DNA of 40,592 nt from Sorangium sp. (GTDB lineage Bacteria; Myxococcota_A; Polyangia; Polyangiales; Polyangiaceae). Below are positions 27,019 through 31,821 of this stretch, one piece after another (the stretch's first letter is position 1; each line of letters begins with the position of its first letter). The notes beneath the pieces were generated by a model. It had not been told where the DNA came from, made no database searches, and worked only from the letters and a program-made list of their open reading frames with translations. The DNA lies in assembly GCA_025924095.1 (NCBI GenBank), contig JAICEP010000001.1:1-40592 (forward strand), written 5' to 3'. A program made the position numbers and the translations under genes.

Positions 27019-28890
27019 TCAGAACCGCGAGACGAGCTCGAGCCGCGCACCCTCGAACGGCGGGAAGGTCCGGCACACACCGGAGACGCAGCGCAGGCCT
27101 CCGCGCCGCTGGCCGACGAAGAGCTGCGCCGTGTCGACGATCTGAGCGAGCGTCGTCCTCTTTGATCCGGACTTCCACTGCAGCCCCCCGCTGAAGAGGT
27201 GGCAGAGCTCGCGGTCCTTGCCGGGCTCGCAACCAGGTACGGATGTGTATTCGTGACCGAAAATTGCAGCCAGATGGGGCGACCACTGGAGCGCGATGTA
27301 GTTGTCCCCTTCGATCCAGGACGATTCGAAATTCTCTGGCCTGTAGCGGCGGCGGCTGTTGCCCTGCGCCTGGATGGAGAATGCTCCGGCGAGGTGCTTC
27401 ACGATGTCGTAGCGGACGTAGCCCTCGCTGTAGAAGGCGCGCTCCGAATCGGCCTCGTCGGATTGCCGAGCTCCGGCCCACGCGCGCACGTGCGAGCGGC
27501 TGTCGTCGAAGTGGAGCTCGGTGCCTGCCGCTACGTCCCACGTGTCGGTGCGGTTTGCGTCGTCCGTGATGCATTCCTCGTTCGCCTTCTCCGTGAAGCT
27601 CACGTAATGACCGAGCCAGGCGTACAGGGACACGCTCCGGTTGAAGCGGTAGTCGACGCGCCCGCGCCCGCCCGTCGCGCAGACGTTCGGCGCTCCGATC
27701 GGCTCGACATAGACGGGCTCTGCCGTGGGAGGTTGGTTGTACGCGAGGCCCTTGTACTCGGGCGCGCTGAAGCCGGGGTTCAGCACGTCGACATCGATGC
27801 TGGCCGAGAGCGGTAAGAAGCGGCGATAGTGCTTCCCTTCGAGCGACACGGCGAGCGGCCCGCTGCGGGCGTTCGCCGCCGCATAGATCGCATAGCCTGA
27901 CCGGATGCGCCGGCCCTCTTCCGTTCGGCCCGGCTGGCCGGCCACCTCGACGTACACGTCCCCGCGCTCCGCGATCGAGGGAACACCTATCGAGCCGCTG
28001 AACGTGCCGATCTCGCCCCGGAGAAGCGCTCCGTTCGCGGCGAGCTGCACGCCCTTCACCCCCACCTCCAGGCTTCCCCCGAGCACGGTGTCCTCGACGT
28101 AGCTCGGCCGCGCCTCCGCGACGTTCCTGACGGGGCGAGGATTCCCCTGCGCGTCCAACGTCGACTCGTCCGTGATCAGGTTTCCCGCGCTCTCCGCGTC
28201 GGGGAACCCGAGGAAGAGGGGCGACCCGGCGCCGTGCAGCCTCCTGCCGCTCGCGCTGTCGATGCGCAGCGGGTTCAGCTGCCCGGCGAAGGCCATGGCC
28301 TTGAGCCGGAGGAACGTGAAATCGTGCTCGAGCGCGAGCCTGCCACCTCGGACCGTCGTGTCGATGGCCAGCTCGTCCATCTTGCGCACGCTGAAGACCA
28401 GGCCGCGCCCGAGCTGGGCGTAAAAATCGCCTGCCGTGGCCTCAATGCCTGCCTGAGTGTAGGTCACCCAGAGCTTCGCCGGATAGACCGTGTTCCGGTA
28501 CCGCGAGTGGAGCTCCCGCCTGGCGTCGTTGATCTCGAACAAGACCTCATCGTCCAGGATCTTCTGCTGCAGGTCGGCGCTGGTCGCCGCTGGCCTGCCG
28601 ACATAGAGGGCGGCATCGATCCGGGCGCCGAGCTGAAGACGCCACCAGCTGATCTGCGCGTCCAGCCGGTCGAGGATCTCGCCGTAGTGGTCGTCGAGGT
28701 AGCGCGACGCGTAGCGGGGATCGTCGTTCCGGTTGTCGAAGTGGTACACCGCGGCCGCGGTGTTCACGATGTCCACCGCCATCGGTTTGCCCCCGACGTT
28801 CGGGACATCGATCGCCGCCGCGGGGGCGGCGGTGAGGAGGAGGGACGCTGCGGGCAGACAGGCAAGGGCGGCTTGGAGCAGGGAGCGCAC
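27019..28890 (-). CDS. Predicted outer-membrane beta-barrel protein
   Basis: The 623-residue product has a signal peptide (LLQAALACLPAASLLLTAAPAAA, cleavage near AAA-ID). Long stretches of alternating beta-strand pattern follow (for example ARIDAALYVG, AKLWVTYTQAGIEATAGDFYAQLGR, YAIYAAANARSGPLAVSLEG, RVDYRFNRSVSLYAWLGHYV). The last residue is phenylalanine, as in many outer-membrane barrels. It resembles barrel families of the DUF6029 kind, but I cannot confirm a family. Seven cysteines occur in the mature chain, most in apparent loops and two pairs near the end (GCEPGKDRELC, RCVSGVC), consistent with disulfides. Two thioredoxin-like genes lie directly upstream on the same strand, and one of them may form these disulfides or deliver a substrate. 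Confidence 0.8.
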   Translation of the reverse strand: MRSLLQAALACLPAASLLLTAAPAAAIDVPNVGGKPMAVDIVNTAAAVYHFDNRNDDPRYASRYLDDHYGEILDRLDAQISWWRLQLGARIDAALYVGRPAATSADLQQKILDDEVLFEINDARRELHSRYRNTVYPAKLWVTYTQAGIEATAGDFYAQLGRGLVFSVRKMDELAIDTTVRGGRLALEHDFTFLRLKAMAFAGQLNPLRIDSASGRRLHGAGSPLFLGFPDAESAGNLITDESTLDAQGNPRPVRNVAEARPSYVEDTVLGGSLEVGVKGVQLAANGALLRGEIGTFSGSIGVPSIAERGDVYVEVAGQPGRTEEGRRIRSGYAIYAAANARSGPLAVSLEGKHYRRFLPLSASIDVDVLNPGFSAPEYKGLAYNQPPTAEPVYVEPIGAPNVCATGGRGRVDYRFNRSVSLYAWLGHYVSFTEKANEECITDDANRTDTWDVAAGTELHFDDSRSHVRAWAGARQSDEADSERAFYSEGYVRYDIVKHLAGAFSIQAQGNSRRRYRPENFESSWIEGDNYIALQWSPHLAAIFGHEYTSVPGCEPGKDRELCHLFSGGLQWKSGSKRTTLAQIVDTAQLFVGQRRGGLRCVSGVCRTFPPFEGARLELVSRF

Positions 28891-28965
28891 CTCGCGTTCC
28901 TACCATGGACCTATCGCCCGTGGAGCGTCGTCGCGGCGCGGCGCCGAGCGCGAGTCCCTCCGTTC

Positions 28966-29493
28966 CTACGGTTGGCCGAGCGCCTTCTCGACCTGCTCGG
29001 CGAGCATCGCCTCGTCGCCGGGCTGGTACCCGCCGCGCTTGTGAAGAATCGAGCCGTCTCGGCCGATGAGCACGGAGAACGGGAGCTCGCGCTTCGGATT
29101 GTACTTGGCCGCCACGGTCGTCTCCTCGTCGAGGAGCACGGGGAAGATCATCTCCCTATCGTGCGCCGTGCTGCTCACCTGCGCGCGGGACTCCGGTCCA
29201 TCGAGGGACACGGCGAGCACGACGAACCCCTTGTCCCTGTGCTTCTTGTAGAGCTCGACGATGTGGGGCATCTCCGCCAGGCACGGATCACAGGTGGTCG
29301 ACCAGAAGTCGATCAATACGACGCTCTTGCCGGAGTAGTCCGAGAGCCTGACTGTCTTGCCGTCGAGGGCGGGGAGCGAGAAGTCCGGCGCAGGGCTCGC
29401 CGCCGGGCCGCCGGAGGCTGCTCCGCACGAGGTGGTCGCGAGGCCAAGGACAGTGAGCACCAGCGAGAGCGCGCAGCGGCTATTTCGGTTCAT
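28966..29493 (-). CDS. TlpA-like thioredoxin-fold lipoprotein
   Basis: The 175-residue product has a lipoprotein signal (LSLVLTVLGLATTSCG) and an AhpC/TSA-TlpA-like thioredoxin domain from ~30. The redox motif is CDPC in DFWSTTCDPCLAEMPHIVELY, and a cis-proline loop is visible at ELPFSVLIGRDG. Such proteins reduce or isomerise disulfides outside the cytoplasm. I chose the ATG at 29493; an earlier frame start at 29541 would put sixteen polar residues before the signal. The barrel gene follows 75 bases later and the second thioredoxin gene lies 151 bases upstream, so these three probably share a role. CDPC is less common than CGPC or CPPC and may give a different redox potential. Confidence 0.88.
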   Translation of the reverse strand: MNRNSRCALSLVLTVLGLATTSCGAASGGPAASPAPDFSLPALDGKTVRLSDYSGKSVVLIDFWSTTCDPCLAEMPHIVELYKKHRDKGFVVLAVSLDGPESRAQVSSTAHDREMIFPVLLDEETTVAAKYNPKRELPFSVLIGRDGSILHKRGGYQPGDEAMLAEQVEKALGQP

Positions 29494-29589
29494 CGAGGGT
29501 TTCCGTCGCGAATGGGCCGGCCTGAGCGGCCGACCCGGCATGAGGGCTTAACGTCGCGGACGCCACGAGCGGCGCCCTGGCAGATTCTC

Positions 29590-29636
29590 CCGCGCGGGCG
29601 TGCCGACCACGGTGGCTCGGCGATGCGCCCGCGCGG
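29590..29636 (-). terminator. Extended hairpin between the two thioredoxin-like genes
   Basis: CCGCGCGGGCG (29590-29600) and CGCCCGCGCGG (29626-29636) form a perfect 11-pair stem, and inner GCCGA and TCGGC add five more. It follows the stop of the gene at 29645 by nine bases in the direction of transcription. With no U-tract it may weaken rather than stop read-through. Confidence 0.45.
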
Positions 29637-29644
29637 CGGCTCGT

Positions 29645-30352
29645 TCAGATCTCACCGTTCATGATCCTCTCGAAGGTTCGCCAGAAACGGCTGTCCTCCG
29701 CGGGTACGCCGGAGACGACCTCGACGATGGTCATGTCCTTCGTCTTGACCAGCATGTTCGCCGGGAACGCATCGGCCTGGAAGAGCGCGCCGAGCTTGTA
29801 TGACGGGTCGATCGCGGACGGGTACTGCACGTCGTACTGGGTCGTCCAGCGGTACAGGTCGCGCGGCACGGCCGGCTCACCCGGGTTCCTCCCATCAGCG
29901 AGCTGGACCAGGAACTCGCCGCCCAGCGGTTGATACTGCTCGTAGAGCCGGGGCAGGACGGACTCTGCCTCGACTTTGCAGGGGCCGCACCACACGGACG
30001 AGACGTCGATCAGCAGCACCTTCGGCTTCGGCTCGCCAGCGCCGTAAGGCGAGCCCTCGGGAAAGACCTCCTCCCCGGACGGGTTGTAGAAGTCGGCGAG
30101 CTGAATCGGCTGCATCGTGTCGTTGTGTTCGGCGGCGTTGGCGTATCCGACGAACTGATAGTTCGCGATCACCCGGCCGGGGCTGATCCCATACGGCCCA
30201 GCCGGATATTGAGCAGCGTTGGCCGCAGGCTGACCCGTCCCGTCAGGAAAGGGAGGAGCCGGAATGGGATCCTCTTCTCCTGCGCAGCCGACGAGCCCCA
30301 GGGTTGCCACGACGCCAAGGCCCATCCAAACGAGAACTGCGTCCATTCGCAT
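29645..30352 (-). CDS. Thioredoxin-fold lipoprotein with a long N-terminal extension
   Basis: The 235-residue product starts MRMDAVLVWMGLGVV and has lipobox LVGC (Cys23). A ~85-residue extension rich in Gly, Pro and aromatic residues (PAGPYGISPGRVIANYQFVGYANAAEHN) precedes the thioredoxin domain. The redox motif is WCGPC in VLLIDVSSVWCGPCKVEAESV, and AFPANMLVKTKDM carries the cis-proline loop. Myxobacteria have several such proteins; the role of the extension is not known. The ATG at 30352 lies ~36 bases after a likely -10 box. It diverges from the cysteine-rich lipoprotein gene and heads a run of three genes on the minus strand. Confidence 0.87.
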   Translation of the reverse strand: MRMDAVLVWMGLGVVATLGLVGCAGEEDPIPAPPFPDGTGQPAANAAQYPAGPYGISPGRVIANYQFVGYANAAEHNDTMQPIQLADFYNPSGEEVFPEGSPYGAGEPKPKVLLIDVSSVWCGPCKVEAESVLPRLYEQYQPLGGEFLVQLADGRNPGEPAVPRDLYRWTTQYDVQYPSAIDPSYKLGALFQADAFPANMLVKTKDMTIVEVVSGVPAEDSRFWRTFERIMNGEI

Positions 30353-30387
30353 GATGCCACCGCCTGAAGTATGGTGTAGGAGTGCTC

Positions 30388-30416
30388 ATTCTTCTGGGCG
30401 GCACGGGGGGCGTCAA
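30388..30416 (-). promoter_or_regulatory. Promoter of the thioredoxin-like gene at 29645-30352
   Basis: On the minus strand TTGACG (30411-30416) is followed after 17 bases by AAGAAT (30388-30393), giving five and four matches to the consensus. It faces away from the cysteine-rich gene at 30526. Confidence 0.5.
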
Positions 30417-30525
30417 GGGCAACCTTGTCGTCGCCGCCGCTTCGCTCGGGGGCTCGTTTCCGCAATCTCCGGCCAGGCCCGCGGTGCCTGCCCCGATCCG
30501 CGGGTGTTTCCCGCGCTGAGGTCCT

Positions 30526-31821
30526 ATGCAGCAGGTTGTCGCCTCTCACAGCGCCCGTCTCCGTCGTCTCCACGCGTTCCTGATGCTGGGCTGCCTGGCG
30601 AGCGCGGCGGCCCTCGCGAACGGCGCCTGCTCGTCGTCGGACGCGCCGCGGGACGAATGTTTCGGGGGGGTGATCATCAACGGCGTCTGCGAAGGCAAGT
30701 GCGAGCCGGAACTCTGCCTCCCGGGCAACACCTGCGTCGGCAACCGCTGCGTGCTCAAGTGCAGCAGCCACCTTGAATGCACCCCGGGTCTCCAGGACTG
30801 TATGCCCGCCGAGGAGGACGACACAAAAGTCGGAATTTCCGTTTGTAAGCCAAACGGGAAAATGGTGGGTTTCGGTGCGCCATGTCCGTTCGGTCTCGAG
30901 TGCGGCCAGTTCGGGTACTGCCCTGATGATACGCCGTGCAACCCGGTGCAGTGCGGGGGTAAACCCGGCGAGTGCCAGCGCGACACCGCGGTGTGCGGCG
31001 ACGATCCCGCCTGCTCCGCCGGCAAGTGCAGCGACGGCAGCCACTGCTTCATCCCGACCTGCTCCCCCGACGAGTGCACCTCGCACGGCCTGGAGTGCCT
31101 CGGCAAGGGAGAGGGCGACGCCGAGGCGTACTGCTCGCAGCTGCATTGCGCGAGCAACGCAGACTGCCCCGGCGGCTTCGAGTGCGCCGTGACCCGCGAC
31201 CCTCACGCGATCTGCGGCACGGAGAAGGGGAATAGCAGCTTCTGCGGCGAGACCGACGAAGGATGCGTCGACCCCTCCATGTTCGGCGACCGCAACACCT
31301 ATGTCGAGGGCTCGCTGTGCCTGCTGCGCAGCACCTGCGTCAAGCGCACGCAGTGCGCGCCGTGCAGCTCCGATCTCGACTGCTCGCTCGTTTCAGGGCA
31401 GCGCTGCGTCACGATCGACGGCGAGAGCCGGTGCGCCAGGTCCTGCAGCGAGGACGCCGACTGCGACCTCGACTACAGGTGCGAGGACGGCGCGTGCACA
31501 CCGCGGTTCGGCGCCTGCGTCGGGAAGGGCAACTTCTGTGAGCCGTGCCGCAACGACATCGACTGCGGCGACGAGGACTCGACGATGGCGTGCACCACCA
31601 CGCTGCGCGGCCAGCGGGTGTGCGTCGACGCGGCGCTCCCCATCCGGTGCACCGCGGAGGACGCGGCCGACGTCTGCCCGAAGTCGCCCAGCGGGCTCCC
31701 CGGCGCGTGCGTGTGCGTCGAGACGAACTCGAGCGGGGCGTGCGTGGACTCGCGGTGCTATCTGCCGTCGCGCCAGCTCGACCCAGGCGACCAGGATTCC
31801 GTCGTCACCTCCTGCTGGTGA
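30526..31821 (+). CDS. Extremely cysteine-rich lipoprotein
   Basis: The 431-residue product has a signal (LHAFLMLGCLASAAALANGAC) with a possible lipobox. I count about 56 cysteines, about 13% of residues, spread evenly. Many are in short C-x5-C-x(3-6)-C modules (DLDCSLVSGQRCVTIDGESRCARSC, NDIDCGDEDSTMACTT). Such modules are common in myxobacterial 'Cys-rich' surface proteins and must be heavily disulfide-bonded outside the cell. A perfect hairpin CGCGGG…CCCGCG (30499-30515) sits just upstream of the GAGG ribosome-binding site and could influence translation. It is divergent from two thioredoxin-like genes, natural candidates for its folding. A patch at ~30828-30880 has unusually A/T-rich codons. 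The function is unknown. Confidence 0.85.
   Translation: MQQVVASHSARLRRLHAFLMLGCLASAAALANGACSSSDAPRDECFGGVIINGVCEGKCEPELCLPGNTCVGNRCVLKCSSHLECTPGLQDCMPAEEDDTKVGISVCKPNGKMVGFGAPCPFGLECGQFGYCPDDTPCNPVQCGGKPGECQRDTAVCGDDPACSAGKCSDGSHCFIPTCSPDECTSHGLECLGKGEGDAEAYCSQLHCASNADCPGGFECAVTRDPHAICGTEKGNSSFCGETDEGCVDPSMFGDRNTYVEGSLCLLRSTCVKRTQCAPCSSDLDCSLVSGQRCVTIDGESRCARSCSEDADCDLDYRCEDGACTPRFGACVGKGNFCEPCRNDIDCGDEDSTMACTTTLRGQRVCVDAALPIRCTAEDAADVCPKSPSGLPGACVCVETNSSGACVDSRCYLPSRQLDPGDQDSVVTSCW

Follow-up and report, generated by a model that had tools for sequence, protein, structure and literature searches.

The question raised by this locus is why genes for an outer-membrane β-barrel and two different thioredoxin-fold lipoproteins should lie beside a divergently transcribed gene for a lipoprotein packed with cysteine. 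The locus is part of a 40,592-nucleotide stretch of a Sorangium sp. contig (the window) and comprises the following features.

27019-28890, minus strand: DUF6029 outer-membrane β-barrel of 623 residues, with a GTG start and a signal peptide
28966-29493, minus strand: Trx1, a ResA/TlpA-like thioredoxin lipoprotein of 175 residues, with lipobox Cys23 and the motif C68-D-P-C71
29645-30352, minus strand: Trx2, a second thioredoxin-fold lipoprotein, of 235 residues, with lipobox Cys23 and the motif C122-G-P-C125
30353-30525, no strand: divergent regulatory region between Trx2 and the cysteine-rich gene, marked by conservation of the spacer
30526-31821, plus strand: cysteine-rich lipoprotein of 431 residues, with lipobox Cys35

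This inventory agrees with the first-pass annotation, which had described a barrel with cysteine pairs, CDPC and CGPC thioredoxin lipoproteins and a divergent lipoprotein with 56 cysteines, about 13% of its residues. All four genes lie at the coordinates given to them; the divergent lipoprotein contains 56 cysteines in 431 residues (13.0%), and the mature barrel has six, four of which (C404, C440, C601 and C606) are invariant in 41/41 sequences. The minus-strand genes are spaced by 75 bases (barrel/Trx1) and 151 bases (Trx1/Trx2), and the set is flanked in the window by genes for desaturase-like, diacylglycerol-kinase-like, HEAT-repeat, Mrp and S1 proteins. The reading favoured here, to which a probability of roughly 0.5 is assigned, is that the locus encodes an outer-membrane thiol-disulfide module for which, in the Polyangiaceae, the cysteine-rich lipoprotein is a dedicated client. 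No description of such a module was found in the literature searched.

The set is conserved within the family. A match to the barrel was present in 46 of 60 family genomes, that in G049 being weak (E = 3e-4), and the cysteine-rich family in 41. Both occur in 41 genomes, the barrel alone in five and neither in 14, while none of the 60 carries the cysteine-rich gene without the barrel (Fisher p = 7e-10, a value that is optimistic because the genomes are related and no correction was made for kinship). In the 40 genomes whose loci were read, some of the compared genomes being fragmented, Trx1 and Trx2 lie next to each other in 37. Of the 40, the cysteine-rich gene diverges from Trx2 in 36, and in 36 a thioredoxin gene adjoins the barrel. 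This arrangement is retained across dozens of genera and, judged from gene order and co-occurrence, the linkage is far beyond chance. The first-pass annotation had inferred cooperation of the four genes, naming conserved co-occurrence and order in several genera as support and independent occurrence of the families as refutation; the former was observed and the latter was not. Cooperation is thus supported by linkage and co-occurrence, with its biochemistry still inferred.

The exceptions reveal which genes travel together. In seven genomes (G007, G009, G015, G016, G029, G041 and G055) the barrel is not beside the cysteine-rich gene. The latter adjoins Trx2 in all seven, and Trx1 is there too except in G015 (both thioredoxin genes at loci L221, L223-L225, L227 and L228; Trx2 only at L222). 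The displaced barrel has a Trx2-type neighbour of its own in three of these genomes (G007, G009 and G055), and over all loci read a barrel-side Trx2-type copy was found in nine genomes. Seven barrel-side copies form one clade in the Trx2 tree (support 97/94), a topology that suggests a single duplication followed by a division of partners.

The cysteine-rich protein could not be placed in a known family. The window protein matched no family in Pfam, nor any in NCBIfam above chance, a PDB sequence search returned no relative of the family, and a structural search with the AlphaFold2 model (pLDDT 84, pTM 0.74) gave nothing significant. A Dickkopf-type domain was rejected, as Pfam gave no match and the best PDB match, the N-terminal region of Dkk4, had an E-value of 0.19. 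Of its cysteines, 54 follow the lipobox Cys35. Across 30 orthologues, with the lipobox site taken from the alignment column, the number of cysteines after the lipidated residue ranges from 34 to 72 and is even in every case (binomial p = 2e-9 if independent). Similarly, the mature barrels of the family contain 4 to 10 cysteines, an even number in 39/39. The p-values ignore kinship among the genomes; as the counts vary widely among orthologues, evenness does not derive from shared descent alone. The parity favours full disulfide pairing over thiolate metal binding, and all 54 mature cysteines of the window protein appear, on this indirect evidence, to be in disulfides. Of the roles suggested in the first-pass annotation, therefore, disulfide handling is favoured and metal binding disfavoured by the even counts. 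By sequence the family does not fit a metallothionein-like binder, CxC and CC being nearly absent and the count even in 30/30. Among the matches listed, barrels from outside the phylum have an even number of cysteines in 53 cases and an odd number in 31 of 84, after a crude signal-peptide cut; parity is not strict there, and the rule is therefore claimed for the Polyangiaceae families only. As a simple check, it can also be applied to other families rich in cysteine.

Trx2 and the cysteine-rich gene are separated by 173 bases. This spacer shows 88-95% identity to its counterparts in two congeners, whereas the adjacent coding DNA reaches 79-86% and other spacers nearby 56-80%; it contains a promoter-like site, TTGACG-17-AAGAAT, on the minus strand (30416-30388). 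That the spacer is more conserved than the flanking coding DNA supports shared control of the Trx2 side and the cysteine-rich gene. The latter is probably co-regulated with the divergent thioredoxin and barrel genes, as far as sequence conservation alone can indicate.

Both thioredoxin lipoproteins retain their active sites. Trx1 matches AhpC-TSA (PF00578, E = 1.5e-25) and carries CDPC, and so combines an AhpC-TSA/Redoxin fold with a CxxC motif. CxPC is retained in its orthologues, P138 is likely the cis-Pro and the nearest solved structures are ResA/DsbE-like. Identification as ResA proper was rejected (97.9 bits against a curated NCBIfam cut-off of 170). In Trx2, W121, C122, C125 and P197, the last likely a cis-Pro, are invariant in 31 sequences, and its profile matches solved ResA at E = 5e-12; on profile similarity Trx2 is a weaker member of the fold family of Trx1. 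Most members of both groups contain only the two active-site cysteines, and neither Trx1 nor Trx2 matched the DsbA family. VKOR and DsbD_TM homologues are encoded in the genomes tested, so both oxidising and reducing inputs are available to the proposed module. Trx1 and Trx2 share with the TlpA/ResA oxidoreductases the fold family, the CxxC motif and the presumed cis-Pro, but they are lipoproteins linked to an outer-membrane barrel and score far below the curated NCBIfam cut-offs for ResA, TlpA, StoA and DsbE. Known ResA and TlpA proteins function at the inner membrane, chiefly in the maturation of cytochromes. In the Dsb system the oxidoreductases DsbA and DsbC serve disulfide-bonded envelope proteins, with LptD as a client. 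The proposed action of Trx1 and Trx2 would resemble this, although the two are lipoproteins whose genes accompany those of a barrel and a cysteine-rich partner, and they lack a DsbA family match.

The barrel belongs to DUF6029 (PF19494; E = 9.6e-14, 51.3 bits against a cut-off of 27), as do 39/39 aligned barrels of the family. The signature G[DN]FYxQxGxG is present as GDFYAQLGRG and the C-terminal motif CxxGVCR as CVSGVCR, the protein ending in RCVSGVCR. An NCBIfam search identified no family for the barrel and a PDB sequence search no relative. DUF6029 is a widespread outer-membrane family to which, to our knowledge, no function has been assigned. In the literature searched it is mentioned only in PMC9603273, which suggests that it resembles polysaccharide porins of the Wzi type. 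Structure prediction, a step proposed in the earlier annotation, yielded a confident barrel with AlphaFold2 (pLDDT 87.7, pTM 0.84) of ∼26 strands, with short turns at one end of the barrel and long loops at the opposite end; the models of the barrel and the cysteine-rich protein were built on shallow alignments of 39 and 30 sequences, respectively. Outer-membrane barrels have a periplasmic C-terminus. If this holds here, C404, C440, C554, C563, C601 and C606 are all inferred from the model to lie in extracellular loops, and the same topology reading, from secondary structure, would place the N-terminus in the periplasm. The structural matches are generic large barrels (the usher FimD at E = 5e-14, TM 0.43 and rmsd 23 Å), and thus no function was inferred from them. 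It should be noted that the window barrel lacks, near 28021 (residue 290), an often cysteine-bearing insertion found in congeners, which sits in a predicted extracellular loop; the protein has 623 residues compared with ∼670-685 in congeners.

Beyond the Polyangiaceae the barrel and the thioredoxins persist, mostly without the cysteine-rich family. Of 141 genomes of the phylum, 57 carry a DUF6029 barrel, and in this sample the cysteine-rich family (E 1e-20) was restricted to the family of the window; a cysteine-rich homologue is also present at L201, a locus outside the Polyangiaceae. Of 20 distant loci, nearly all have a thioredoxin gene of the Trx1 type, the Trx2 type or both immediately upstream of the barrel, L203 being one exception. 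A distinct 33-cysteine lipoprotein, scoring only weakly against the window's cysteine-rich family, is in line with Trx2 and the barrel in a different family of the window's order (L206:4179-5294, plus strand; L207:8174-9262, minus strand). At L219 (1589-3556, minus strand) a natural fusion of ∼655 residues joins a signal peptide, a Trx1-type domain (FFATWCVPC) and a DUF6029 barrel which, given a periplasmic barrel N-terminus, places Trx1 in the periplasm.

The linkage also crosses phyla. A motif scan of genome contigs, an arbitrary sample selected by the barrel motif, recovered loci that, among the matches listed and by record title, are mostly from Bacteroidota, with some from Chlorobiota, Ignavibacteriae and Kapabacterium. 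Of the 98 listed loci for which the sequence extends far enough, 83 have a small thioredoxin gene immediately upstream of the barrel; an Omp28 gene is near the barrel in 77 of 83 listed loci, its identity (PF11551) being confirmed by Pfam in 36/38. A C-terminal CxGGVC motif is nearly universal among the listed barrels, both DUF6029 motifs are also present in the Bacteroidota loci, and the C-x4-C of the last hairpin is retained from Myxococcota to Bacteroidota. Gene order in Bacteroidota is thioredoxin, DUF6029, Omp28, followed in one Porphyromonas genome by a large protein with SAVWCGPC. The DUF6029 family, mainly of Bacteroidota, resembles the Polyangiaceae set in its barrel, its motifs and the Trx1-type gene directly upstream, while the Polyangiaceae branch differs in having four invariant cysteines, rather than a single conserved pair, and in being linked to a cysteine-rich lipoprotein. 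Omp28, like Trx2, is a thioredoxin-like lipoprotein beside a DUF6029 barrel, but Trx2 is not detectably of that family. A relationship between the two was rejected on an hhalign probability of 13.9% and the absence of a Pfam Omp28 match in 31 Trx2 members. The porphyromonad literature on the Omp28 neighbourhood offers hints of location and no function for the barrel. From this distribution of genes, the barrel and thioredoxins are an older, cross-phylum core and the cysteine-rich gene is a lineage-specific addition, a distinction that was missed when cooperation of the four genes was first proposed. Neighbourhood and a natural fusion link DUF6029 with thioredoxins in Myxococcota, Bacteroidota and related phyla, and give the family a testable role.

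In the proposed module a ResA-like Trx1 would sit at the periplasmic face of the barrel and act with this protein, whose extracellular loops would be disulfide-bonded. Together with Trx2 they would make or correct the disulfides of proteins in the outer membrane or at the cell surface. The dedicated client in the Polyangiaceae would be the divergent cysteine-rich lipoprotein, which would need 17 to 36 correct disulfides, and the barrel would be an additional client that may also help to display this lipoprotein. Linkage, co-occurrence, retained active sites, even cysteine numbers, the conserved promoter region and the Trx1-barrel fusion support this reading. Action of the thioredoxins on the cysteine-rich protein, and as isomerase or oxidase rather than reductase, is inferred without biochemistry, as is display or export of the cysteine-rich protein by the barrel. 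Several points count against the module or limit it. ResA-like sites are mostly reductive, and the predicted barrel cysteines are extracellular, yet the L219 fusion puts Trx1 in the periplasm. The core outside the Polyangiaceae mostly lacks the cysteine-rich family, so this client was not its original job, and first-look candidate counts suggest many other cysteine-rich proteins in the genomes, for which general machinery may suffice. If correct, the Polyangiaceae set pairs an apparent dedicated client with its enzymes, for the folding or repair of many-disulfide proteins at the outer membrane.

The main rival holds that the barrel itself is the principal client, with Trx1 and Trx2 as dedicated folding factors for its extracellular disulfides, by analogy with the periplasmic oxidoreductases that act on the barrel LptD, and the cysteine-rich protein as a second, later client. 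Trx1 and the barrel are the most widespread linked pair, once fused, and this explanation also draws on the wide retention of C-x4-C and on the nine family genomes with a Trx2-type gene directly at the barrel. However, 38 of the 84 barrels outside the phylum, among the matches listed, have exactly two cysteines, a small job for dedicated enzymes, and where the genes separate in the Polyangiaceae Trx2-Trx1 stays with the cysteine-rich gene. The explanation remains possible, although we consider it unlikely.

More speculative is a thiol-disulfide relay across the outer membrane, in which periplasmic Trx1 would hand on redox equivalents, either through the DUF6029 barrel or past it, to thioredoxin-fold proteins at the surface, namely Trx2 in Myxococcota, and Omp28 and secreted thioredoxin-like proteins in Bacteroidota. 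We regard this as distinctly doubtful; were it true, disulfides could be formed or mended at the cell surface, a place for which we know of no disulfide supply.

A role in nutrient uptake is similarly hard to sustain. Here the barrel would be a channel, the thioredoxin lipoproteins would reduce or bind, for example, heme, copper or cystine, and the cysteine-rich protein would be a surface binder. The large modelled barrel could be a pore, and the profile of Omp28 matches Porphyromonas HBP35, which is located at the surface and has both thioredoxin and hemin-binding activity (PMC2907840). The strictly even cysteine counts oppose thiolate metal binding, however, and the immediate window neighbours examined included no gene for a transporter, for a TonB-dependent receptor or related to metals.

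It is very improbable that the barrel is a polysaccharide export porin, as its similarity to Wzi might imply. Although HHpred relates plug-less homologues of the Wzi barrel to DUF6029 (PMC9603273), the model has ∼26 strands rather than 18, Wzi is absent from the best 50 structural matches and AlgE reaches a TM-score of only ∼0.26. The flanking window genes are not polysaccharide genes, and the thioredoxins would be left unexplained. That the four are chance neighbours without shared function is scarcely credible: gene order is partly inherited and Mrp likewise stays near the set in many genomes, but the HEAT-repeat and kinase flanks are gone in most distant relatives while the set persists, and the retention of Trx2 by the cysteine-rich gene when the barrel moves, the conserved divergent promoter region and the Trx1-barrel fusion all argue otherwise.

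Some long proteins encoded around barrel loci deserve mention. Trx2-type domains occur in long proteins near the barrel at L070 (6923-10411, minus strand) and L071 (4054-5943, plus strand), both of which additionally carry CxxCH-like motifs. Downstream of the barrel locus at L206, from 9261 onward on the plus strand, is a 1580-residue open reading frame with 168 cysteines. The Porphyromonas SAVWCGPC protein (L232:4083-5801, minus strand; 572 residues) looks like type IX secretion cargo with a thioredoxin domain.
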